Assembly (NCBI RefSeq): GCF_000003815.2
Contig: NC_049981.1
Location: 2,431,880-2,495,879 of the forward strand
DNA: 64,000 nucleotides
Direction of reading: 5' to 3'
Source of the DNA: Branchiostoma floridae
Lineage: Eukaryota; Chordata; Leptocardii; Amphioxiformes; Branchiostomatidae
Part shown: piece after piece, positions 25,891 through 50,608 of the stretch
Position numbering within the stretch: position 1 is the stretch's first letter
How the letters are laid out: every line of letters starts with the position of its first letter
Position numbers and translations under genes: made by a program
The notes under the pieces: model-generated
Told to the model about the DNA's origin: nothing
The model's database searches: none
What the model saw: only the letters and a program-made list of their open reading frames with translations

Positions 25891-28800
25891 GCTGACATCC
25901 ATGTATCTGAATCGGAGCAGAACTCGGGCCAAGATGAGCCCCTTCAAAGGGAAGCAGATGGAACCAGTTCAAACCAGTTCAGACCTGTTCCCACCCAGGA
26001 TGGAACAGGCCCCAAACCGGACAGAACCAGTCCCAAACCAGACAGAACTGGTCCCAGCCACAACGTAACCAGCCCCAACCTGAATACCACCAGTCCCAAC
26101 CAGGACAAAACCGGTCCAAACCAGTTTAGAACGGGTTCTGGCCAGTCTCAGGAGGACACAGCCAGTTCTGACTGGTCCAGCTCTGACCTGCCGCCGCTCA
26201 AACCCTCAGGAAAGAAGAGGAAACGGGAAACGTCGACGGATTCGCGAGATAGCAGCGGGACAGGACAAAGTGACACCAGCAAGGGCGACACAAGTAAGCC
26301 GTTTCTGTCACCTGTAAACAATATCAGTATCATGCATCGCTTCTGAGGTAACACTTTGTGTTACAGTGTGGCAAGATCTGAGGATTCTGTAGTTATTCCG
26401 CAGTTGCCAAAAGAAATAGTAAGAAAACTATATTCAAATGAGTTCCTGATGATGTGTGATGCAGCAAGTCAGGAAAAAAGTACTTTTGAGTCCTGCCCAA
26501 GCATGTCTCAAATGTTGTTCCACCCTTGACAACAAGTATAAATGTTTCAGGAACCCCCGAGTTGATGGGCCCCCCTCTGGCACCACCCCCCTCCAGCCTG
26601 CCCCCTGCAGCTGACGCCCCCCCTCTACAGAACCCCCCTGCGAAGAAACAGCAGCAGTATGCCTACATCTTCTCCACGGAGCTGGCAAACAAGGCAAGTA
26701 CTGTGGAGTTTTGTGTCACACATAAGACCTGGGAGCAATGTTGTATCCCAAACAACCATGGCATAACCATATGACAATGGACAGGACCAGATCTGTAATC
26801 CAGCTCGAGTTTGCTGTAACATGGTCTCTTCTAAAACGCGATACTTCTGTCCCCCTAGGCTGCAGAGGCGGTACTGCAGGGACGTGTGCAGTCCATCGTG
26901 GCGTTCCACATCGAGCACGTGACTCGGGCGCGACTCAGCCGCATGCGCCACAGCGAACAGGTGCGTGGACTTTTTCATTTCAGCTTCGTTAAAATTACAT
27001 TCATCATGTCTTAATGACTTTGAAACTGGTCAACATATTACTCTATTCATGATGTCTACATTTCCTACTGTTGTCAGTAGTTGTCTGTTTCTGTTTTCTG
27101 CCTAGCATTTTGTTTAGTGGCAGTGCTTTGGGGTTTGTTTTTTTTAAAGCTTTGTTGAACTTATGGCACCAGCTGTATCAGTTTGGTAACCCCTGGCAAC
27201 AGGTTATTAATTTGGTAACCCATGGCAACAGCTGTATCAGGTGTAGGTCGGTAACCCATGGCAACAGCTGTATCAGGTGTAGGTCGGTAACCCATGGCAA
27301 CAACTGTATCAGGTGCAGCTCGGTGACGCATGGGAACAGCTGTATTAGGTGCAGCTCGGTTACCCATGGGAACAGCTGTATCAGGTGCAGCTCGGTTACC
27401 CATGGGAACAGCTGTATCAGGTGCAGCTCAGTTACCCATGGGAACAGCTGTATCAGGTGCAGCTTGGTGGCCCAAGACACCTTAGCATCAGGTGTAGGTT
27501 GGATACAGCTGACAGGTGTCTTCCCTTTTCCAGGTGCAGTCCGGTAACCCATGGCAACAGATGCAGGCCAGCCAGATGGGTTATGGTTCAGACTTGGCAC
27601 TGAACCCATCAGCGGGCCCGGGAGGAGCGCCGCCCCAACAGCTACCCTCCAAACCACCCCCACCATACCCGGGCAGCGCCTCCCTAGAGGCAGGGGGGAC
27701 GGAGGGCCTGACACCGGAGCAGCTTCGCCATCGCCAGGAGCGGCTGATGACCATCCAGCGCATGCACAAGCTGCTGTTCCCTGAACAGGCGCAGACGGCG
27801 CCCCCTAGTGACTCCCTAGCAGCACAGCAGCAGCTGGACCTGGCCAGCCTACAGGGGCAGCCCCTGGGGCGGGGGATGCCGGGCGGCCCACCACGACCCG
27901 TGGGCCCCGGGGGACTCAACATGCAGCAGCAGCCCAGCCCGGGCAACCTACCTCCCAATCAGATGATGTCACCGCACGGAATGATGACATCACAAGCAAA
28001 CATGATGACATCACAGGGTTGGACCGACCCTTCCCAGAGTGCAGCAGCTCACAAGGTGGCCATGATGGGGCTGGGGTCGCCGGGGTCAGAGGGCATGGGT
28101 TCGCCGGGTCAGCTGGGCGATGATCAGATGTCGGCTGCGCAGATCGAGTGGCGACGGCTGGAGGAGAGTTTCTACCGCGAGAAACGGAAACGGATGCTGG
28201 AGCAGCAGATGATGCGTGGAGGGCCGTATGGGGGACAGAGGTAACTCACTCACACTCATTCACCGACTCACAGTCACTCACACTCACTCACACACTCTTT
28301 ATGCGTACACTCATTCACTCTTTCACTCCGTTGATTGATGGAGGGCTGTACAGGGTACAGAGGTACACTAACTTATTCACTCTCTTACTCATTCATCAGC
28401 ACTTACTCCTTCACATACTCTCTTACTTACCAGCTAGCTGTAAATACATACTAGCTTAACATTTAACTCAGACTACAAAATGTGGAGCACACAGAGGCAG
28501 CTGCAACCTATGAACAGTGGCAAAATTTCAGCATTTTGAAAATGAATGGCTAGTAAAAGACACTTATACGCTCTAGTGTTTCAAGTTGTCAGTTTCTTTA
28601 TTTGTCCTGTAAAATTTATTTTTCAATGTGTGCGGGGAACAGCATTGTCCAAGTTGTTTTCAGCCCATAATGCTTTACCCCTGCCTCCATTCTAGGTACC
28701 CTGGTCCGCAACAGTTCTTACCTCAGGACTATGATGGCCCCCCAGACTCCCAGGGGGCCTTGCAGACTATGCAGCCGCCACCACCGTACCAGGACCTGGC

Positions 28801-37545: not shown

Positions 37546-37553
37546 TGACGTCA
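37546..37553 (+). promoter_or_regulatory. Perfect CRE (TGACGTCA) touching the start codon
   Basis: The palindrome TGACGTCA ends on the A of ATG 37553. CREB sites are common near the starts of neuropeptide genes. Whether this one acts as a promoter element depends on where transcription begins. Confidence 0.45.
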
Positions 37554-39175
37554 TGATGATCCAAGTTGGTGTCGTGCTTGTACTGGTGGGGCTGCAGCTG
37601 GTGCAGGTAGGCGGAATGTCTCCTTAAGTCTTTACGTCTTAGATCTTAAGTCTTTACGTCTTAGACCTGCAGCTGGTGCAGGTAGGCTGAACGTCGTCTT
37701 ACGTCTTTACGTCTTACATGTTAAGTCTTTACGTCTTAGACCTACAGCTGGTGCATGTAGACTGAAAGTCTTCTTACGTCTTCCGTCGTAAGTCTTTACG
37801 TCTTAAATCTTCACGTCGTATGTGTTAGACCTGCAGCAGGTGCAGGTAGGCAGGGCAGAATGTTTTCTTACGTCTTTACGGTCTTACGATTTAAGTCTTC
37901 AAGTTTGTACGTCCTAAGTCTTTACATGTTGAGGCAACTTGGAGCTGTACTTGTCCTGGTGGGGCTGCATCTGACGCAGTTAGGCAGGGCAGAGCGTTTT
38001 CGATAGTCAAGAACGAGCTGACTAAGGATACAGTGAACGTTATCCAAACCTTTTGGATCTACCCAATTGTAACATGTAATATAACCTGCCGTTTCCTCCC
38101 CAGACCAGCCCGCTCCCCGTCCATCAACCCAGACAGCTTCCGGACAATCTGCGGGAGGAGCAAGGTAAGGAAAATCACTGCGATTCACTATTAGTATTAC
38201 ACGACAGTGACTTTATCATGTTCAGTCGGCTTTACACGTTGAAACTAATGTACTAGTGTTGATCTTTCTGCCAATTTATTTTAGTGACGCTAAAAAAGAC
38301 TGATTTCAGGATGTTATTCAGTTACACAGCAGGTTGAATTGTCCTTGCATATAAATCACCGATATTGCTACACATGAGAGGAACATGTTTTAAACATTTC
38401 AGTTAAGCGTCGGCTTCAAGATCTCCAGGAGAACCTCGGCAACGGCTTTCCTAGAAAGCGACAATTCCAAGATCCCCAGGAGAACCTCGGCAACGGCTTT
38501 CCTGGAAAGCGACAATTCCAAGATCCCCAGGAGAACCTCGGCAACGGCTTTCCTGGCAAACGACAGTTTCAAGATCCCCAGGAGAGCCTCGGCAACGGCT
38601 TTCCTGGAAAGCGGCAGTTTCAAGATCCCCAGGAAAGCCTCGGCAACGGCTTTCCTGGAAAGCGACAGTTTCAGGATCTCCATGAGAACCTCGGTAACGG
38701 CTTTCCCGGCATACGGCAGTTTCAAGATCCCCAGGAGAGCCTCGGCAACGGCTTTCCCGGCAAACGGCAGGTTCAAGATCCCCAGGAGAGCCTCGGCAAC
38801 GGCTTTCCCGGAAAGCGACAGTTTCAAGATCCCCAGGAGAACCTCGGCAACGGCTTTCCTGGAAAGCGGCAATTTAAAGATCCCCAGGAGGACCTCGGCA
38901 ACGGCTTTCCCGGCAAACGACAGTTTCATGATCCCCAGGAGACCCTCGGCAACGGCTTTCCCGGCAAACGGCAGTTTCAAGATCCCCAGGAGAACCTCGG
39001 CAACGGCTTTCCCGGCAAACGGCAGGTTCAAGATCCCCAGGAGAACCTCGGCAATGGCTTTCCTGGAAAGCGGCAATTTAAAGATCCCCAGGAGGACTTC
39101 GGCAACGGCTTTCCCGGCAAACGGCAGTTTCAAGATCCCCAGGAGAGCCTCGGCAATGGCTTTCCTGGCAAGTAA
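37553..39175 (+). CDS. Multi-copy amidated neuropeptide precursor (QFQDPQENLGNGFP type)
   Basis: Exons 37553-37606, 38104-38164 and 38403-39175 encode 295 residues; phases 0 and 1 match. Exon 1 is exactly a signal peptide (MMIQVGVVLVLVGLQLVQ). Exon 2 begins TSPLPVHQPRQLPD and ends in a VKR dibasic site made across the junction. Exon 3 is 15 head-to-tail 17-residue units of the form QFQDPQENLGNGFP-GKR. Each has N-terminal Gln (pyroglutamate), a C-terminal Gly (amide donor) and a Lys-Arg convertase site, with nothing between units. Predicted product: pQFQDPQENLGNGFP-amide and variants (N/S/D/T at position 8, F/V at 2, Q/K/H at 3). Unit 1 starts Arg-Leu and has RKR instead of GKR, unit 6 has GIR, and the last ends GK-stop. 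The repeat exon opens without ATG, so a simple ORF scan misses it. I recognise no known neuropeptide family. Weaker alternative: a structural secreted repeat protein. Confidence 0.93.
37607..37985 (+). repeat. Four tandem copies of the exon 1 end in intron 1
   Basis: The segment CTGCAGCTGGTGCAG/GTAGGC that ends exon 1 recurs at about 37666, 37741, 37831 and 37960, spaced 75-130 bases by CTTTACGTCTTA-rich filler. The first three keep the exon end and a GT; the last is a whole exon copy with a broken donor. Confidence 0.85.
37926..37979 (+). pseudogene. Complete second copy of the signal-peptide exon
   Basis: These 54 bases give 18 codons, MLRQLGAVLVLVGLHLTQ, matching exon 1 in length and most residues. 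The donor is TTAGGC instead of GTAGGC, so it should not splice. It still has an ATG and a good hydrophobic core, so it could have served as an alternative first exon. Confidence 0.8.
38411..39172 (+). repeat. 51-bp coding tandem repeat, 15 units
   Basis: Units of exactly 51 bases encode the repeated peptide. Nearly all differences are single substitutions, and several change residues 2, 3 or 8 of the peptide. Synonymous differences (CCT/CCC, GGA/GGC, AAG/AAA, CGA/CGG) show that units have diverged and been reshuffled in blocks. The minus strand is also open across the array but has no signal peptide or known motif. Confidence 0.97.
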
Positions 39176-39537
39176 CCGCTTAAAAACCACAGGAAGGCGG
39201 CCGCAAAGGCTCCTTTCTTCCCTCACAATCGTTAGCCATGGTTGAAACCACTGTGAAGTCAAGGCAAGGTCTATCGCGCCACCTAGCGTGTAATGTAGAT
39301 TTTGCATTCTCGTTCTGCTAACTTCTACACTTCATTGGAACTGGAACAAAAGCAATGTAATAGGATCACTAGGCAGCTAAGTAGCTGGTATTGTGACCGC
39401 ATACATATTTTGTACCAAAATGAACATAACGTGTTGATAATTGAATAATACTAGCGGTAAACTTGAAGAAATGCTCCTTGTAAATCCCGCTCTGCACTTT
39501 GTACTGTGACTCCAAAAGTTGCTCACATCTCTAAACT

Positions 39538-39612
39538 TAGCCCCAACCCTATCCAGAACCCTAACCCTGACTCTAACCCTAAACTAATCCACAACCCCAA
39601 CCCTAACTTCAC
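39538..39612 (-). repeat. Degenerate telomere-like (CCCTAA)n
   Basis: About nine units of ACCCTAA, several mutated (CCAACCCTA, GACTCTAACCC), lie downstream of peptide precursor 1. An interstitial telomere-type microsatellite. Confidence 0.7.
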
Positions 39613-39714
39613 GCACGCACGCGCATTCGCCTCACGTAGCCAAAAAATCTGGCTAAGCACAAAATTGGTTCCGTTATGGCAGTTTCTACTTCTTCACTTT
39701 CTCAGATGGGATGT

Positions 39715-39720
39715 AATAAA
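39715..39720 (+). terminator. Candidate poly(A) signal for peptide precursor 1
   Basis: The first clean AATAAA after the stop, ~540 bases downstream. Confidence 0.4.
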
Positions 39721-39894
39721 GCATGGCATGAGCAGTGCTGGTACTGGTGGAAGTCTTCTGTTTGGCTCTGTGCGCAACGTTGTAGTATATAACAAAGTTA
39801 GGAGAGGTAGAAACGGATAGATATATAGATATCGATAGAGTAAGGAGCCGTTGGATAGAGATAGATAGACGGGGTTCAGATGTGTTTGTATGTG

Positions 39895-39992
39895 AGTGAG
39901 TGAGTGTGTGTGTGTGTGCGTGTGTGTGTTTGTGTGTGTGTTTGTATTTGAATTCGTGTGTATGTGTGCCCGTGTTTTATGCCTGTGTGTGA

Positions 39993-40071
<79 letters not shown>

Positions 40072-40075
40072 CTTC
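39895..40075. repeat. (TG)n and (CT)n microsatellites
   Basis: GTGTGT stretches (39900-39990) flank an almost pure CT run of about 60 bases (39994-40053), followed by more GT. Confidence 0.97.
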
Positions 40076-40249
40076 AATCAACGTACTATGAAAATACTCA
40101 AACGAAAATCACATATAAATCTTAAACTTTCAGTAAGTAAATGGAAATGGCATACTTCGACATTATCTTTACCCAAGGCAGGTAAATCAGGGCAGATTGG
40201 TCAAAGGCAACGAACTTGAATAAACAAGACTATTTTAAAAACAGTATGG

Positions 40250-42238
40250 AACAAGAGTTCGTAGACCTCAGGCCTGCATGAAATGTATTGGGTTTCTGTA
40301 GACCTATTGGGTATTTTTGCCTTTTTGTCTGTGGTACGTGGTTGGAAAAATGAGCTTTTTACCGTGTTGGTTGTGCACCATGCAAAAGTCTGACTCTGAA
40401 ATTCCATTTTCTGAATTTGTAAGTTTGGACATGGATGAACATTACTTATTTTGGATTTCTTAAGTATGTAACCAACCACAGTACTTTGAAGTTGTTGAGA
40501 CGCTACCTTTTTTTGTCTCAGATGGCCCATGCACATGTAGTTACTCTGTCACATGATATACTAATATCTTCCTATTTCAATGTACTGACCTAATGCAGCT
40601 GCTAAGTCTCCTTGGTTTGTGTTCTTCCAATGATATTCATTAAAGATTTATTTCTGGGGTGTTATTCACTTGACATCGGAATGTTACTTGCATAATTTGA
40701 CCAATGATACTTTTATCTGTAGTTCCATAGACATTAGACAATATGAATAGTGGTAGCCCCCATGCAGCAGCAACAGTTAGTCCCCAGGGTGGTATGATAT
40801 TTTCATTCAATCCATCCAACCCAAACCTAAATCTCCTGTAGTATCTAAGCCAAATTTAACAGCATAATTTACTATGAAAAATGTCCTTGTCAATCCCATT
40901 TATAGATGGCAAGCTGCTGGCAATGGAAGCTTTGAAAAGTTCAGAAGCTGTTGTAGTCAGAGCAAACACCCAGCAAACATCCCCGCAAACCAATGAGCAG
41001 TTGCTTAGAAGGGGAATTTCATCATATATTTGCCGCGACAAAATGCAACAAACGATACTGAATTTAAAACAGAACAAAGCTAAGCCTCCACCACTTAACC
41101 CTGCCTGTACCATAGATTAAGCAGGCCCAAAAACCAAGCGAATATGACTAGCCCAAAACAACAAATTACCTGTATACAGTATGGAAATGGCATTACCAAA
41201 GAAACAAAAAGAAACACAGGACAAATACACATACCTTTCTCTTATGCCCACACTCTATACAGTTCTCCTCCACATTAGAAAATTGCATCTTCTTCTGTTT
41301 AAGTTCAAGTTCAACCATGATTGCCAACAGGGTAAAGGAACTTGTACCGAAACTTAAAACTCAGTACTATACAGCTCTAGAAACACCACAAAGAGTAATA
41401 AGCAAACTCCAATTATACCTGACCAACAGATATATAATCTTGTACACTCCCGTCATCTGGCAAACTGTCAGTGCCACTAAGTAACCTGATACATTGAAGG
41501 TGGCCCAGGCCAGATGATGGTTCTACACCCAACCATAATCTGTTTTTAAAACCAAGCAGATATTGGGAGGATGCCCCAACCACACAAAAACAGGATCAAC
41601 CTATACAGTATCAAGTTCAAGCACTAGGAGGCCCAAAATCAAACCTGACCACCAGGACACCACAAACAACTCACGTACCAAATAGCAACACAATGGTACC
41701 TTGCGTTCCGGAGATACAGCGCACGCCCCGTGCCCGCACAAAAGGTAACCTAAAATGTCAAGTTCAAGCACCAAGGGCGCCAAAATCAAAATTGAGCATT
41801 ATTCAGCCACCGCCGACACATGTGCCAAATATCATCGCGCCAGCACCAGCCGTTCAGAAGATATAACTCCGGAAACACCCCTCCCGGACACAAAATTCGA
41901 CCTGCCGGGTCAAGTTCAAACGCGACAAGGCCCAAAGTCAATCCTAGGCAACAGGCAACAACCCCCCACCCATGCACCAAAAATCGTCGCAATCGCGCGT
42001 ATCGTTCCGGACACACAGCGCCAAAAGTGCCCCCAAAACACCAAAAATGCCACCTGCAATGTCAAGTTCAAACGCCAGGAGGCCCAAAATCAAACCTGAG
42101 TGTTAGGCTACCACCCCCAACCCACGTACCAAAAATCGTCGTGCTCGCACCATCCGTTCACGAGATACAGCGCCCTACATCCCCGGCTACCGAAAAGTTC
42201 CCACCAGCATCAAAACCATACCTGCATACATGCAGGTA
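40250..42238 (-). repeat. Left arm of a large palindrome (repeat unit copy A)
   Basis: This ~1.99-kb unit is the near-identical reverse complement of 42834-44936. In the orientation of the right arm it begins with the near-palindrome TACCTGCATGTATGCAGGTA, has four to five internal ~150-bp tandem subunits (GCTTGAACTTGACATT...CGCTGTATCTC), an AT-rich half and ends CTACGAACTCTTGTT. It also carries a short reading frame (see 43753-43837). The ends and internal subrepeats are reminiscent of non-autonomous Helentron-like elements, but this is inference. Confidence 0.9.
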
Positions 42239-42638
42239 AAAAGCCTCTAATATGGCACCTTCCTACCCACCTAGTTCTTGGACCTCATATTGTACTTCAT
42301 CGATAAAAAAACGTTACCTAACGACCACAGACAGAAGTTAAGGGTCAGGGGAGTCATTCTATCAGTTTATAATTCAATGTCAAATTAATAAGTATTGTTG
42401 TTTTGTCACAGCAGCACGGTATTATGGAATGTGATGATATATATTTAAGTTACAACAAAGATGATAATTATGTATCTTGAGGCATTCTGTTGTAATTTTC
42501 TGTGACAGGAAGACTCATCATCATGACAAGACTACAAGAACAAGAATAGCCACGCCTTCGCAACGTTTTCAACGAAGGATTGATGTACGTGTTCAACATT
42601 CTCTCTACCCACTCCCTATCTCTGTCTCTCTTTCCACA

Positions 42639-42676
<38 letters not shown>

Positions 42677-42833
42677 TCTCTCTCTTCCATTTCTCTCTCT
42701 CCCTCTTTCTTTGTGTGTGACCGTCTCTGTGTAAGTGATTTCCATGCAACCTTTTGCCATTTCCTTTCCAGAGTAAATACTATAACTCCTATGCAATATC
42801 TATGACGTATCTGCAACTATCTGTAATATTGTT
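42239..42833. other. Spacer of the palindrome with (CT)n
   Basis: About 600 bases of unique-looking sequence with a pure CT/CTCTCTC tract at ~42600-42715. No gene seen. Confidence 0.6.
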
Positions 42834-43752
42834 ACCTGCATGTATGCAGGTATGGTTTTGATGCTGGTGGGAACTTTTCGGTAGCCGGGGATGTAGGGCG
42901 CTGTATCTCGTGAACGGATGGTGCGAGCACGACGATTTTTGGTACGTGGGTTGGGGGTGGTAGCCTAACACTCAGGTTTGATTTTGGGCCTCCTGGCGTT
43001 TGAACTTGACATTGCAGGTGGCATTTTTGGTGTTTTGGGGGCACTTTTGGCGCTGTGTGTCCGGAACGATACGCGCGATTGCGACGATTTTTGGTGCATG
43101 GGTGGGGGGTTGTTGCCTGTTGCCTAGGATTGACTTTGGGCCTTGTCGCGTTTGAACTTGACCCGGCAGGTCGAATTTTGTGTCCGAGAGGGGTGTTTCC
43201 GGAGTTATATCTTCTGAACGGCTGGTGCTGGCGCAATGATATTTGGCACATGTGTCGGCGGTGGCTGAATAATGCTCAATTTTGATTTTGGCGCCCTTGG
43301 TGCTTGAACTTGACATTTTAGGTTACCTTTTGTGCGGGCACGGGGCGTGCGCTGTATCTCCGGAACGCAAGGTGCCATTGTGTTGCCATTTGGTACGTGA
43401 GTTGTTTGTGGTGTCCTGGTGGTCAGGTTTGATTTTGGGCCTCCTAGTGCTTGAACTTGATACTGTATAGGTTGACCCTGTTTTAGTGTGGTTGGGGCAT
43501 CCTCCCAATATCTGCTTGGTTTTAAAAACAGATTATGGTTGGGTGTAGAACCATCATCTGGCCTGGGCCACCTTCAATGTATCAGGTTACTTAGTGGCAC
43601 TGACAGTTTGCCAGATGACGGGAGTGTGCCAGATTATATATCTGTTGGTCAGGTATAATTGGAGTTTGCTTATTACTCTTTGTGGTGTTTCTAGAGCTGT
43701 ATAGTACTGAGTTTTAAGTTCCGGTACAAGTTCCTTTACCCTGTTGGCAATC

Positions 43753-43837
43753 ATGGTTGAACTTGAACTTAAACAGAAGAAGATGCAATTTTCTAATGTG
43801 GAGGAGAACTGTATAGAGTGTGGGCATAAGAGAAAGG
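43753..43837 (+). other. Conserved exon-like ORF start within the repeat unit
   Basis: ATG opens MVELELKQKKMQFSNVEENC followed by IECGHKRK and then a GTATGT donor. The same start and donor are present at 49798 and, inverted, in copy A. The CxxC suggests the start of a zinc-binding domain. A further frame at about 43961-44330 (or its complement) is also conserved. Whether the unit encodes a spliced protein is uncertain. Confidence 0.35.
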
Positions 43838-44157
43838 TATGTGTATGATTTGTCCTGTGTTTCTTTTTGTTTCTTTGGTAATGCCATTTCCATACTGTAT
43901 ACAGGTAATTTGTTGTTTTGGGCTAGTCATATTCGCTTGGTTTTTGGGCCTGCTTAATCTATGGTACAGGCAGGGTTAAGTGGTGGAGGCTTAGCTTTGT
44001 TCTGTTTTAAATTCAGTATCGTTGGTTGCATTTTGTCGCGGCAAATATATGATGAAATTCCCCTTCTAAGCAACTGCTCATTGGTTTGCGGGGATGTTTG
44101 CTGGGTGTTTGCTCTGACTACAACAGCTTCTGAACTTTTCAAAGCTTCCATTGCCAG

Positions 44158-44261
44158 TAGTCTGTGTAACACAAACTCCGCTGTCCAGGGCTGTAACTGG
44201 CCCCTCCCCGCGGGCCGGCGGATGTTTGGCGGGCTGCTATAAGCGAGATTTAATCAGGCTA
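44158..44261. mobile_element. 104-bp MITE inserted in palindrome arm B
   Basis: Comparison with arm A and the 50-kb copy shows an insertion starting TAGTCTG and ending CAGGCTA, flanked by direct repeats CATTGCCAG (44149-44157 and 44262-44270). A 9-bp (or 8-bp) duplication with TAG-type ends fits a hAT- or Mutator-type MITE. The empty site is visible in the other copies. Confidence 0.88.
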
Positions 44262-44936
44262 CATTGCCAGCAGCTTGCCATCTATAAATGGGATTGACAA
44301 GGACATTTTTCATAGTAAATTATGCTGTTAAATTTGGCTTAGATACTACAGGAGATTTAGGTTTGGGTTGGATGGATTGAATGAAAATATCATACCACCC
44401 TGGGGACTAACTGTTGCTGCTGCATGGGGGCTACCACTATTCATATTGTCTAATGTCTATGGAACTACAGATAAAAGTATCATTGGTCAAATTATGCAAG
44501 TAACATTCCGATGTCAAGTGAATAACACCCCAGAAATAAATCTTTAATGAATATCATTGGAAGAACACAAACCAAGGAGACTTAGCAGCTGCATTAGGTC
44601 AGTACATTGAAATAGGAAGATATTAGTATATCATGTGACAGAGTAACTACATGTGCATGGGCCATCTGAGACAAAAAAGGTAGCGTCTCAACAACTTCAA
44701 AGTACTGTGGTTGGTTACATACTTAAGAAATCCAAAATAAGTAATGTTCATCCATGTCCAAACTTACAAATTCAGAAAATGGAATTTCAGAGTCAGACTT
44801 TTGCATGGTGCACAACCAACACGGTAAAAAGCTCATTTTTCCAACCACGTACCACAGACAAAAAGGCAAAAATACCCAATAGGTCTACAGAAACCCAATA
44901 CATTTCATGCAGGCCTGAGGTCTACGAACTCTTGTT

Positions 44937-45704
44937 TGGAAAGTTGTGATTACCGGAAATGACGACATAACATGGCTTTGTAGCAAAGCATGGGCTAGAC
45001 ACAGCGCAACACTTCCGGTGGCGGTGAACTCAAACAGACAGCAGCAGAATGTAATGTTTACAGAGATTTTACGGCGCTAGGAACGCGTGGAATCGCTAAT
45101 AACCCATCCGGTAATTTAGGGTGTCACGCTCGCAAACTATAAACTAATAAATGAAATGTATTGATAATAAATCAATCAGTATCGATATTAAATGTCAAAG
45201 TGACACGTAAGCCCTGATATAGTTTGACGGAAGCTGTATTCATCAGCAAACGGCAGTACAGAGAATACCTTTCAGGCTGGGGTACATTTTTATTTTTCGT
45301 AGATATAATATATTAGTTATTCTCTGACATTAATACGCCTTCGCTCTGTTTCTGAATTTGTCGAAGTTCAATCTTTGTTCCACTGGAACTATCATGCCCA
45401 GATCCGTTCGCTTTTGTTTAGCATACAGAATCCTCCTTCCCTACGTTAAAAGCCGATGCGATGTCCGATGCCAAATTTAGGCAAAAACCTCCGGATCTTT
45501 TCTTGTCGAACACAATATCTGCAGTATGCATTCACAACGAACCCACTACGAAACGGTATTCACTACATGATGTCCGCCGTTTTAAAATTATAATTTCCGT
45601 CATTCCTATAATGATAAAACGCGAGCATGTCGCTACGACATTTAATATCGATACTGATTAATTTTGTAATTTATGACCGATATCTCTGACGTCGATCCGG
45701 TGTG
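44937..45704. other. Intergenic DNA upstream of peptide precursor 2
   Basis: No gene recognised. AT-rich, with no clear repeat. Contains the likely distal promoter. Confidence 0.4.
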
Positions 45705-45841
45705 TGACGTCATACAGATAGGTATAATCCCGCGCGTTTGGCGGATTCCAGTCAGAATCTCAGCTGAGAGAAACAGCGTTTGGCGGGAAAATCACAGAAT
45801 CGTCTGCGCTGAGTCTGAGAGAAACAACGTTTGGCGGGAAA
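45705..45841 (+). promoter_or_regulatory. CRE and three TTTGGCGG motifs upstream of precursor 2
   Basis: A perfect TGACGTCA at 45705-45712 is followed by TTTGGCGG at 45737 and two full E2F-like TTTGGCGGGAAA sites at 45779-45790 and 45830-45841, the last running into the start ATG. The two full sites lie in a ~51-bp tandem duplication (GAGAGAAACAnCG plus site). Confidence 0.5.
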
Positions 45842-47731
45842 TGGATCTGATGACGCGGGAACTCTTGTTCTTCTTCCTGGCAGCAGTTTGCGTGCAGGTA
45901 AGTCGCCATTTGGCCCGGCACGTCGGTTTCTACAGAAGGCTTTCAAGGTTCAGTGTGGCTAATGTAACTACTAGTATGGGTGAGTACCGGTACAGGTACA
46001 AAACCAGATTTTCTTGTTCGACCGATCCAGGAAAAAAAACAACGTGAGAAAAATCAGGTAGGCGTTCACGCCGCATGGTTCTTTTGGGGCTTGCAGGTCC
46101 AAGAAAGCAACAAGAGCGAAGCAGAGGAGACTTGACAGTCAAACTTAATTGAAAACAGAGACAGGTAGTGTTCTTTCCATGAGGATAGGATTTTAAAACA
46201 CTAGTGGACGTCGCATATGCATACTCTACAAAACAGAATTCTTGAATTAGTGAAATCAATGGACCATTGTTTTGAGTATCGCCCATTCCCATTGGTCTTC
46301 AAAGATAATTAGGTCCAGGTTCAAGTCCGGACCTGAACCTGATCTTCTGGACCTGAACCGGACCTGTACTATACCCAGAATTTTCTGTACCGGTACCCGC
46401 CCCTAGCTACTAGTGACTAGTATATCACAGTCAAATCTCCAAGCAGATGTGGGGTCTAGCTTGTGTTTTGCAGCACCCTGTGTGTCGTGCGCGTTTGTCA
46501 GGAATTCAGGGAGCAGAGAAAACACCGGCCGGCTGGAAGACGTACACATAGCGGCCATCGAAACAGCCGTACATCTGCTTGGAGATTTTCGGACAGCAAT
46601 ATCAGTCAAACCTCGAGCTCTTACCCGTCGTGTGTACAAAAATGTTTTTTGTTATGATTGTATTTCAGAATCGTTCTCTTTGAAGACCTTTGAAATGTCA
46701 CCCTAAAATCTACCAGTACCTGTTACACTTCATATCAAGATCGCTAGGAGTCACACCGTACATGACACGCCCCGTTGACTTTATCAATGATAAAAATAAA
46801 CAATTCTCCCCCTTTCCAGGCCAGTCCGCTGGGCAAGACTGGAGCAGACCACGATATCGATGGATTCGACTTAGCGGCCAAGGACGTGGAGCGTGAGTAT
46901 GGGGGTTTAAAAGCAACCACTGCCGGGCGGACACAGACAATTATGCAAGGGAAGTTATTTCATTATATATCTTTGAAAAACACTCATTCAGCCAGTTCAT
47001 GAATTCAGAGCTTCCCATTGTTACAGAACTACGCTTCAGGGGAATATCATTGTCGTACCTTGTTTCAAACATACAAATCTAACGTAAAGTATTCACATTA
47101 TTTAGCCTAACTGCCATTCTAGTTAGTTTTCCGTGGCCCCCCAAACTCTAGCCAGGTTGCCATCCTATTTAGTTTACCTAGGCTCCCATAAAATGTGAGG
47201 CTGAGGGGAGGGTATAGGAGCCCCAGATGGCACAATTATCGCCACCTGTCATTGTTTAAGCTTAACAGTCTCAATACTGCCCCTGACACAGTCTTCTACA
47301 GGCCCGAGAATCCGGATTCTGGAGTTCCGGAGAAGCGATGGGGAGGGGCGTGCCTGGGCTGCCCTCCGGACCCAATCCTGATATCCGGACGAGCTTCTCC
47401 GGATTCCGAATCCACCTTACCGGAAAATCCACACCACGAGAGTCCGGATTCCGGAGTTCCAGAGAAGCGGTGGGGAGGAGCTTGTCTCGGCTGCCCTCCG
47501 GACCCAATCCTTATATCCGGGCGGGCTTCTCCGGATTCCGGAACCAACTTACCGGAAAATCCGCACCACGAGAATCCGGATTCCGTACCACAAGAGGTTC
47601 CGGAGAATCTACAGCCAGTGGCTCCGGATTCCGGGCGATCGGATGTGCCACAGAAACGGTGGGGAGGGGAGTGCCTCGGTTGCCCACCCGATCCCATCAT
47701 TCTCCTGGGGAAGAGAAAACGATCCGCGTAG
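45841..47731 (+). CDS. Peptide precursor with three cyclic amidated WGG(A/E)CLGC peptides
   Basis: Exons 45841-45897, 46820-46892 and 47292-47731 give 189 residues with matching phases 0 and 1. Exon 1 is a signal peptide (MDLMTRELLFFFLAAVCVQ). Exon 2 begins ASPLGKTGADHDIDGF. Exon 3 carries three peptides, each after Lys-Arg: WGGACLGCPPDPILIS-GR (47339-47392 and 47471-47524) and WGGECLGCPPDPIILL-GKRKR (47660-47722). The two Cys, two residues apart, should form a tight disulfide ring, and the Gly before Arg/Lys should give a C-terminal amide. Spacers are Pro/Glu/Asp-rich (PENPHHESPDSGVPE) and duplicated along with copies 1 and 2. The acceptor at 47290-47291 is chosen because it alone keeps phase; the nearer AG at 47300-47301 would not. 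I do not recognise the peptide family. The start could also be Met 45850. Confidence 0.85.
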
Positions 47732-48877
47732 CCGGGAGGCTCAGCATGACCATCATCTTCATGGCGGTCAGCACCGTGCAAACTAGAATTGACCGACACG
47801 GACACCGAACGGACTGTTCCTAACTAAAGACGTGTTTCTCTTAGTGTAGACTTTACCAAATGGGCTGGTCCTAACTTATGTTCTAACAAATGTAACGTTA
47901 CTTCTCTTGGTGTTAAGGTCACGATCTTTCTTTTGAAACGGTTGTAAGATGACATAAAGCCAGAGTATTCCTCAACCAACAGCCAAAGACTGCATGCACT
48001 ATTGAAAAATCTACAATTTAATGTATCCCGTCATAACTTGCATTAAAAACGGTATACAAGATCATCCACGTGAACGTGTGCTTTTTCCGAGTACGAGTTA
48101 AAATATTTAGATTATAAGACTTAGTTCGTTCCTTATGAGAAAAGGATGTCACTAGAGTTGCATGTTAAGAAGGAGCCTTTCTCAGGTTTCGAGCTGTTAG
48201 TCTGTTCAATTCGATTTTATTTTATAGTTTAGATATTGCGTAATACGTAAATGTATGACTTAAAGACAACAAATGTCAAAATGCACAAACGTAAGAAAAC
48301 TCGTTTTTTCATCTCTGAAGTGAGTATCTTTCGAACTCCGCAGCGCCGCACCGGTGTCCCAAGTGCAGTGAGATACCGGTGCCACCTTAAGGTGAAGTCT
48401 GAAGGAAGACAACACCTGCTAAGGACAGGTAGACTGTACAATGGATTTTGTCTTTGACTTTGTGAAAGAAATATGTTCTTCCGATGTATTTGTTCATCCG
48501 GTATAACTTAGGCCACAGCTAATAAATTTAATGGCATCCGCGCGCTTATTGATTTTCGCCTGATTAAAAAAAAAAACAATAATTTTTTTCTTCCTTGGAA
48601 CAGGAGTTTCCTTCTTTGGAGATGGTAAACATGCGGAAAAAAATAACGGAATTGATCATGAGCAAATGTGTTGTAGCCTAATGATAGCCTCTACCAGGCT
48701 TCGTGGATCGGTGGAGTACTAGTAATTGTAGAAATTGAACAAATAGAGTCAATAGTATGCTAGAGGAGTCGGCCGGCCAGTAAATACATGAGCCGACCCA
48801 CATTTGCTAGCCTAATGATCGTACTTGTAGAAGTAACACTTAGCCAGGTAAACTACATAGTTAGAAGTAGAACTAGT
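47732..48877. other. 3' UTR of precursor 2 and intergenic DNA
   Basis: AATAAA at 48521-48526 is the clearest poly(A) signal. No other gene or repeat is recognised. Confidence 0.45.
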
Positions 48878-50608
48878 TACCTACATGTATGCAGGTATGG
48901 TTTTGATGCTGGTGGGAACTTTTCGGTAGCCGGGGATGTAGGGCGCTGTATCTCGTGAACGGATGGTGTGAGCACGACGATTTTTGGTACGTGGGTTGGG
49001 GGTGGTAGCCTAACACTCAGGTTTGATTTTGGGCCTCCTGGCGTTTGAACTTGACATTGCAGGTGGCATTTTTGGTGTTTTTGGGGCACTTTTGGCGCTG
49101 TGTGTCCGGAACGATACGCGCGATTGCGACGATTTTTGGTGCATGGGTGGGGGGTTGTTGCCTGTTGCCTAGGATTGACTTTGGGCCTTGTCGCGTTTGA
49201 ACTTGACCCGGCAGGTCGAATTTTGTGTCCGGGAGGGGTGTTTCCGGAGTTATATCTTCTGAACGGCTGGTGCTGGCGCGATGATATTTGGCACATGTGT
49301 CGGCGGTGGCTGAATAATGCTCAATTTTGATTTTGGCGCCCTTGGTGCTTGAACTTGACATTTTAGGTTACCTTTTGTGCGGGCACGGGGCGTGCGCTGT
49401 ATCTCCGGAACGCAAGGTGCCATTGTGTTGCCATTTGGTACGTGAGTTGTTTGTGGTGTCCTGGTGGTCAGGTTTGATTTTGGGCCTCCTAGTGCTTGAA
49501 CTTGATACTGTATAGGTTGACCCTGTTTTAGTGTGGTTGGGGCATCCTCCCAATATCTGCTTGGTTTTAAAAACAGATTATGGTTGGGTGTAGAACCATC
49601 ATCTGGCCTGGGCTACCTTCAATGTATCAGGTTACTTAGTGGCACTGACAGTTTGCCAGATGACGGGAGTGTGCCAGATTATATATCTGTTGGTCAGGTA
49701 TAATTGGAGTTTGCTTATTACTCTTTGTGGTGTTTCTAGAGCTGTATAGTACTGAGTTTTAAGTTCCGGTACAAGTTCCTTTACCCTGTTGGCAATCATG
49801 GTTGAACTTGAACTTAAACAGAAGAAGATGCAATTTTCTAATGTGGAGGAGAACTGTATAGAGTGTGGGCATAAGAGAAAGGTATGTGTATGATTTGTCC
49901 TGTGTTTCTTTTTGTTTCTTTGGTAATGCCATTTCCATACTGTATACAGGTAATTTGTTGTTTTGGGCTAGTCATATTCGCTTGGTTTTTGGGCCTGCTT
50001 AATCTATGGTACAGGCAGGGTTAAGTGGTGGAGGCTTAGCTTTGTTCTGTTTTAAATTCAGTATCGTTTGTTGCATTTTGTCGCGGCAAATATATGATGA
50101 AATTCCCCTTCTAAGCAACTGCTCATTGGTTTGCGGGGATGTTTGCTGGGTGTTTGCTCTGACTACAACAGCTTCTGAACTTTTCAAAGCTTCCATTGCC
50201 AGCAGCTTGCCATCTATAAATGGGATTGACAAGGACATTTTTCATAGTAAATTATGCTGTTAAATTTGGCTTAGATACTACAGGAGATTTAGGTTTGGGT
50301 TGGATGGATTGAATGAAAATATCATACCACCCTGGGGACTAACTGTTGCTGCTGCATGGGGGCTACCACTATTCATATTGTCTAATGTCTATGGAACTAC
50401 AGATAAAAGTATCATTGGTCAAATTATGCAAGTAACATTCCGATGTCAAGTGAATAACACCCCAGAAATAAATCTTTAATGAATATCATTGGAAGAACAC
50501 AAACCAAGGAGACTTAGCAGCTGCATTAGGTCAGTACATTGAAATAGGAAGATATTAGTATATCATGTGACAGAGTAACTACATGTGCATGGGCCATCTG
50601 AGACAAAA
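48878..50608 (+). repeat. First part of a third repeat-unit copy (split)
   Basis: Matches 42834-44936 from its TACCT start through CATCTGAGACAAAA, where similarity stops abruptly. The missing remainder is found at 55824-56095. Lacks the 104-bp MITE. Confidence 0.92.

Follow-up and report, generated by a model that had tools for sequence, protein, structure and literature searches.

A candidate prohormone gene for a set of GNGFP-amide peptides in the amphioxus Branchiostoma floridae

Structure of the locus

A 64,000-nucleotide stretch of the Branchiostoma floridae genome (assembly GCF_000003815.2, contig NC_049981.1, positions 2,431,880 to 2,495,879 of the forward strand), here called the window and numbered from its first letter, contains a tandem repeat with peptide-processing motifs that belongs to a candidate prohormone gene, gene 1. 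Three exons join in frame, from the start at 37553 to the stop codon at 39173-39175, to give a precursor of 295 amino acids with a signal-like peptide, a spacer and 15 tandem 17-residue units. A secreted, multi-copy, amidated-peptide precursor appears to be the best reading of this anatomy, and comparison within the same genome supports it. The following features were mapped to gene 1.

37553..37606, plus strand: exon 1, encoding MMIQVGVVLVLVGLQLVQ, a signal-peptide core; it ends in phase 0, with CAG followed by the donor GTAGGC
38104..38164, plus strand: exon 2, acceptor TTTCCTCCCCAG, encoding the spacer TSPLPVHQPRQLPDNLREEQ and the first base of a Val codon; it ends in phase 1, with the donor GTAAGG
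38403..39175, plus strand: exon 3, acceptor AACATTTCAG, encoding V-KRR, 15 peptide units and the stop TAA
38411..39175, plus strand: tandem array of 15 x 51 nucleotides, unit QFQDPQE[NS]LGNGFP-GKR
39715..39720, plus strand: likely polyadenylation signal AATAAA, the sole A[AT]TAAA within 39176-40200
37546..37553, no strand: palindromic cAMP response element (CRE) TGACGTCA, overlapping the start codon
37926..37985, plus strand: degenerate second copy of exon 1 in intron 1, MLRQLGAVLVLVGLHLTQ, with TT in place of the donor GT

A preliminary description of this DNA had placed the junctions at 37606/38104 and 38164/38403; both are in phase (0 and 1, respectively) and carry donor and acceptor signals. 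Its signal-peptide exon was also recovered, exon 1 having a hydrophobic core, a donor at its end and a frame continuous with the array. The dibasic site that it assigned to the end of exon 2 has to be moved: the Val codon of VKRR is split across the exon 2/exon 3 junction, and KRR is coded at the start of exon 3. As it had stated, the repeat exon offers no ATG for its own reading, since exon 3 has no Met in the coding frame, and further open frames lie on both strands. Annotation based on open reading frames could miss gene 1 because the repeat exon lacks an in-frame start codon.

The palindromic CRE occurs three times in the window (36510, 37546 and 45705) versus 0.76 expected, its association with genes being post hoc. 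The copy of exon 1 in intron 1 aligns without gaps over 60 bases (score 34, 47/60 identical). Intron 1 also holds, within 37592-37985, tandem copies of period 75 of the 3′ end of exon 1, including the donor.

Repeat units and predicted products

Tandem Repeats Finder independently calls the array (38415-39171, period 51, 14.8 copies, 89% matches). The sequence that headed the preliminary description, QFQDPQENLGNGFP, is that of units 2, 3, 9 and 12 (4/15), and QFQDPQESLGNGFP is that of units 4, 5, 7 and 15. The single-copy sequences are QFQDLHENLGNGFP (unit 6), QVQDPQESLGNGFP (unit 8), QFKDPQEDLGNGFP (unit 10), QFHDPQETLGNGFP (unit 11), QVQDPQENLGNGFP (unit 13) and QFKDPQEDFGNGFP (unit 14). Unit 1 reads RLQDLQENLGNGFP-RKR and has neither the N-terminal Gln nor the Gly; in unit 6, GIR replaces GKR and the dibasic site is gone; unit 15 terminates in GK-stop. 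Variation among the units falls mainly at third codon positions (41/62 minor-letter cells). The array had been described as 15 uninterrupted 17-residue units, each with the same processing signals. The number of units and their continuity were confirmed, but the N-terminal Gln is present in 14/15 units and Gly-Lys is retained in 13/15.

Cleavage at Lys-Arg by convertases, trimming by carboxypeptidase and amidation of Gly by PAM form the basis of the product list, and gene 1 has the corresponding layout of a multi-copy precursor, with an in-frame signal peptide and tandem peptides bounded by dibasic sites and provided with Gly as amide donor. The signal peptide would direct the precursor to the regulated secretory pathway, where prohormone convertases would cleave after Lys-Arg, a carboxypeptidase would trim the basic residues, including the lone C-terminal Lys of unit 15, PAM would convert the exposed Gly to a C-terminal amide, and the N-terminal Gln of the units would cyclise to pyroglutamate (pGlu). 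The predicted yield is 12 discrete 14-residue pGlu-[FV]xDPQExxGNGFP-amides, one fused 31-residue amide from units 6-7, the dibasic site of unit 6 having been lost, and, from unit 1, one peptide without an amide. Multi-copy coding would raise the output of peptide per transcript. Masses were calculated for eight pGlu-amide variants, seven of which are expected as discrete peptides; [M+2H]2+ is 786.858 for pQFQDPQENLGNGFP-amide, 773.352 for pQFQDPQESLGNGFP-amide and 749.352 for pQVQDPQESLGNGFP-amide. What had been described as 15 copies of a single amide is therefore kept as a multi-copy amide but revised to 12 discrete amides in seven variants plus one fused; similarly, the proposed product, a pGlu-amide and its variants, agrees with the 12 predicted discrete amides but not with the fused 31-mer or the non-amidated peptide.

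Tests of the gene model

Exon 3 contains 12 G[KR][KR] sites, whereas 2000 shuffles of its codons averaged 0.75 and never exceeded 4, and it is the sole stretch with more than two such sites among the 1307 stop-free stretches of at least 30 codons in the window. Sixteen other chosen tandem arrays, translated in six frames each, never had more than one G[KR][KR] per frame. Of 939 ATG-initiated open stretches, 0.4% equal or exceed the hydropathy of exon 1 (3.16). When both strands of the window (128 kb of strand) were scanned for an ATG exon with a strong hydrophobic core and a donor-like end, five rows were returned with a cut-off of 3.0, which was picked after the values 3.16 and 3.05 were known; all five correspond to exon 1 of gene 1 or to exon 1 of a neighbouring gene, gene 2, described below.

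In the claimed frame, the first 14 units give a ratio of the nonsynonymous to the synonymous proportion of differences (pN/pS) of 0.22, versus 2.4 and 1.5 in the other two stop-free frames, with 3.2, 0.29 and 1.9 in the stop-containing frames. A peptide array on contig C14, presented in the next section, gives 0.08 in its coding frame. The pN/pS test is weak because low values in some frame also occur in two of the six control arrays.

Other arrays in the genome are open in several frames, one on contig C4 having 20 dibasic sites in its open frame; control arrays can give a low pN/pS; units 1 and 6 are damaged; and the duplicate of exon 1 looks dead. All of this would suit an untranslated or dead tandem repeat, open by accident and specifying no functional precursor. 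Such an origin is nevertheless very unlikely for gene 1, in which good splice signals join the signal exon, the spacer exon and the array in phase, 12 amidation sites are present, and the exact GNGFPGKR recurs in independent precursor-like genes.

Related peptides elsewhere in the genome

The genome searched comprises 513,431,437 bases in 431 contigs, of which the window is C3:2431880-2495879. A pattern of codons for G-x-[GS]-F-P-G with two variable codons after it, whose counts of repeats are lower bounds, matched at least 37 times, versus at least 8 times for the reversed pattern. Nineteen of these matches lie in three places, namely the array of gene 1 (12), C3:350-394 kb on the minus strand (6) and C14:6059805 (1). 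The last two places contain the following.

C3:350-394 kb, minus strand: cluster of four tandem genes (L009-L015) encoding seven two-Cys peptides with N-terminal Gln before GKR
C14:6054001-6064000, minus strand: precursor-like open reading frame (L046) with 16 DPLSPI[VS]NGQ-GKR, one two-Cys QYDCSVDGTCDALGNGFP-GKR and one KCLWDPSDSICF-GKKKR

Exact GNGFPGKR coding was found solely in the array of gene 1 (12), in the C3 cluster (2) and at C14:6059805 (1), with close variants at four further matched sites of the cluster. By a hand estimate, about 0.06 exact codon matches to GNGFPGKR would be expected by chance in the genome at equal base frequencies. The remaining 18 pattern matches were all translated around the match, and in no case is GNGFPGKR encoded; in three (L016, L018 and L037), whose frames are short or repetitive, FP is followed by one GRR. 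A GFPGKR-type pattern gave at least 38 matches, with 18 in the gene 1 array, the C3 cluster and C14. The other 20 sites were translated as well (16 from just 331 bases); 19 are isolated, five of them with Ser for the final Arg, and the remaining one, C3:29729393, falls in the precursor-like frame L080 described below.

The C3 cluster peptides end in G-x-[GS]-FP or TNSFP, for example QYGCSTGEPNCDTSGDGFP-GKR and QADCSFNNPNCDAAGNGFP-GKR, and one of the seven, QYGCSVNDVNCDVTTNSFP, was missed by the codon pattern. An upstream signal-like exon (MLF[AP]V...LCLCSMQAAG) was found for all four genes, one of which could be joined to a complete precursor. The C14 peptide shares the exact LGNGFPGKR with gene 1. 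In shuffle tests that included the amide-donor Gly, the score of the unit against the C14 peptide was reached by 1/20,000 shuffles, and its scores against two C3 peptides by 2/20,000 and 26/20,000.

Like gene 1, the C3 cluster and C14 genes have an N-terminal Gln, a GNGFP-type end before GKR and flanking basic residues, but their peptides have two Cys and come from mixed precursors. Within gene 1, an N-terminal Gln together with a GNGFP-type end before GKR is found in 12/15 units. The gene 1 amides would be part of an amphioxus GNGFP-type set whose other members are predicted two-Cys pGlu peptides, and gene 1 is, within this apparently unnamed set, a well-supported candidate for a prohormone gene.

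A protein search of the whole genome with gene 1 gave 63 matches at E <=10, 12 of them with a locus. Three loci (L052, L054 and L055) correspond to the gene and to its array read in two further frames. The other nine (L053 and L056-L063), each read in its two most basic-site-rich frames, contained no amidation array; L058 reads as a large protein with leucine-rich repeat (LRR)-like sequence and the rest as low-complexity repeats. The best of the nine is at C4:28680734 (E 1e-20, 25% identity), and one of the 51 matches lacking a locus, at C3:354555-354713 (E 0.038, 50% identity), is the cluster gene. Among the loci inspected, with 50 weak matches left aside, no further precursor like gene 1 was recognised, and remote relatives are possible.

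Two of the sites visited have features of their own. L053 (C4:28680734-28681465, minus strand) is a 51-nucleotide-type array with an open frame, in which units such as PWGQLALCRLGHPE lie between basic pairs; this frame has 20 [KR]R sites without an amide Gly, and could be due to chance or be another precursor. L080 (C3:29728800-29730000, plus strand, frame +2 from 236; site C3:29729393) is a single-exon precursor-like frame with the signal-like start MTGPLAFSLLVALSCSVLVNSA; it encodes four Pro-amides (APLGLP, VPLFGFP, APFALP and APSLALP), each before GKR. L080 was excluded from the GNGFP family, the common feature being the Pro-amide end alone, or GFP in one peptide.

Interpretation of gene 1

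We consider it probable, from the sequence, that gene 1 is intact in Branchiostoma and encodes a secreted prohormone processed to pGlu GNGFP-amides, which would probably act as neuropeptides or peptide hormones via a G-protein-coupled receptor. Several observations weigh against this interpretation. The signal peptide is called from hydrophobicity alone and its cleavage site is uncertain, and processing sites carry lesions in 2/15 units. Two of the six control arrays have a frame with pN/pS <=0.26. A search for a signal exon of the C14 gene gave nothing convincing. The intron phases are 0,1 in gene 1 versus 1, then 0 in the C3 cluster gene, so that a shared gene structure was not found and, therefore, the peptide end alone, not the whole precursor, is shown to be common to gene 1 and the cluster. 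Convergence or exon capture is a possible source of the shared GNGFP end.

Beyond the gene structure, we infer transcription, cleavage, amidation, pGlu formation, disulphide bonds, a neural site and the type of receptor; in particular, the gene 1 product would be a neuropeptide in the sense of neuronal origin only if expressed in neurons. The peptides could instead be secreted and amidated through the same convertase/PAM route but be non-neural, acting as a hormone of an epithelium, the gut or the endostyle, or as a peptide of the skin. The evidence described above fits any regulated-secretory peptide equally well, and no neuron-specific mark was noticed in it, the CRE near each gene start being suggestive at most. 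Multi-copy, pGlu, amidated units are, however, most typical of neuropeptides, and the short acidic peptides are unlike cationic skin antimicrobials. A non-neural role is thus unlikely, though conceivable.

Comparison with known peptide families

The 295-residue precursor has no Pfam match above the cut-off (DUF5338 is sub-threshold only) and no NCBIfam or PDB match. Literature searches covered only the main text of openly licensed papers in PubMed Central (PMC); within that text, no relevant paper was found for the peptide strings searched, those of L080 included. These null results are consistent with the preliminary description, which had called the gene undescribed-looking and had matched it to no family. 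The p values of the alignments to family peptides given below are uncorrected, and 90 comparisons were made.

Thyrotropin-releasing hormone (TRH)-type precursors encode multiple copies of pGlu...Pro-amide peptides between dibasic sites, an arrangement that gene 1 would share. TRH-type peptides have few residues, whereas those of gene 1 have 14 and a long acidic body. In the neuropeptide literature within the main text searched, 'FPamide' was met in the Hydra LFPamide paper alone (PMC8638164); that preprohormone is cnidarian and its peptide ends in LFP, not GFP.

Gene 1 might also represent the pedal peptide/orcokinin (PP/OK) family, whose peptides are multi-copy with a GFx end, as its missing member in chordates. 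PP/OK precursors resemble gene 1 in having many tandem copies, dibasic sites and peptides of similar length (13-19 residues) with GF near the end. The family's three hydrophobic positions, one towards the N-terminus and two towards the C-terminus, are matched in part: the hydrophobic residues of QFQDPQENLGNGFP are F2, L9 and F13, and the L-F spacing of 4 is that of ArPPLN2h (PMC5814872) and SMP (PMC5656890). The Asn unit aligned with ArPPLN2h at p = 0.014, the C14 peptide with ArPPLN1d at p 0.021 and a C3 peptide with orcokinin at p 0.009. Against the other 7/8 PP/OK peptides, however, the Asn unit gave p = 0.28 to 0.52, and the Ser unit reached p 0.06 against ArPPLN2h; gene 1 has Asn where SGFx has Ser, and its N-terminal hydrophobic spacing is 7, not 9. 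The ends also differ: PP/OK peptides finish in SGFx or AGFTD with another N-terminal spacing and are non-amidated free acids in starfish (PMC5814872), whereas gene 1 has NGFP followed by Gly-Lys-Arg, its Gly signal being kept in 13/15 units. We regard PP/OK membership as quite improbable and keep it as a weak lead. A 2017 paper (PMC5656890) says that PP/OK peptides were not identified in hemichordates and chordates, and papers from 2017 and 2018 gave the PP/OK receptor as unidentified.

The NG peptides of the NPS/CCAP family (NGFFFamide, NGFFYamide and SFRNGVamide) are, like the predicted gene 1 products, amidated peptides of invertebrate deuterostomes that contain NG, and the letters NGF are common to the gene 1 unit, NGFFFamide and NGFFYamide (PMC6156427). 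That gene 1 encodes a derived NG peptide, akin to NGFFFamide or SFRNGVamide, is barely credible all the same. The NG motif lies near the C-terminus of a 14-mer, the alignment to NGFFF gave p = 0.15 and that to SFRNGVG p 0.56 (Asn unit) and 0.12 (Ser unit), and no neurophysin domain was found in the Pfam scan of the precursor. The neurophysin domain of NG precursors is reported to be conserved, holothurians excepted, and an NG precursor that carries this domain and two copies of SFRNGVamide has already been described from B. floridae (PMC6156427 among the sources). Membership was rejected on the missing domain, on a precursor that ends at the array and on a peptide that is a 14-mer and not a short NG peptide.

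More tentatively, and with the balance somewhat against it, amphioxus may have a pGlu-...GNGFP-amide family in two forms, undescribed in the text searched: a linear form (gene 1, about 13 amides) and a two-Cys, probably cyclic form (five other genes), sharing a single C-terminal pharmacophore and perhaps a single receptor group, with a linked gene making an unrelated two-Cys WGGACLGCPPDPILIS-amide. In that case, a ligand family that may serve orphan peptide receptors was either retained or invented in a chordate. Cephalochordates are the sister group of other chordates, so that dating the vertebrate neuropeptide systems and matching orphan receptors with ligands require their full set of peptide ligands. 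Gene 1 offers exact and cheap tests, such as the computed masses of its pGlu-amide variants, and the analysis draws attention to one new neighbour gene and, at other places in the genome, to five related peptide genes.

The neighbouring gene and the rest of the window

About 7 kb downstream of gene 1 lies gene 2, a three-exon amidated-peptide precursor of 189 amino acids, with these features.

45705..45728, no strand: CRE TGACGTCA at 45705-45712, then TATAAT at 45723, ahead of gene 2
45841..45897, plus strand: exon 1, encoding MDLMTRELLFFFLAAVCVQ, a signal-peptide core; phase 0, donor GTAAGT
46820..46892, plus strand: exon 2, encoding ASPLGKTGADHDIDGFDLAAKDVE and one further base; phase 1, donor GTGAGT
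47292..47731, plus strand: exon 3, encoding WGGACLGCPPDPILIS-GR twice and WGGECLGCPPDPIILL-GKRKR, stop TAG

The acceptor of exon 3 was chosen before 47292, which keeps the frame; an acceptor before 47302 leads to a 69-residue frame without peptides. The open reading frame of gene 2 has no Pfam family. For its predicted disulphide-bonded amides, the computed [M+2H]2+ values are 798.389 and 840.418. Both genes have intron phases 0,1 and their second exons start alike (VQ|ASPL in gene 2, VQ|TSPL in gene 1), while their peptides have no similarity (p = 0.56); a tandem origin of the two genes is possible but unproven.

Pfam identified LRR-Roc-COR, reverse transcriptase, BCL9, Helitron-like and G-alpha sequences as neighbours in the window. 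Directly upstream of a BCL9 exon lies an array at 27214-27468 (period 36, 7 copies) whose units resemble the start of the exon; it also has a low pN/pS in one frame and, like intron 1 of gene 1, is an expansion beside an exon boundary. Finally, a pair of long inverted repeats at 41150-42240 and 42835-43920, with a third partial copy at 48880-49320, is likely a transposable element; it shows in the open reading frame lists, and this set (41150-49320) lies around the interval that separates gene 1 from gene 2.

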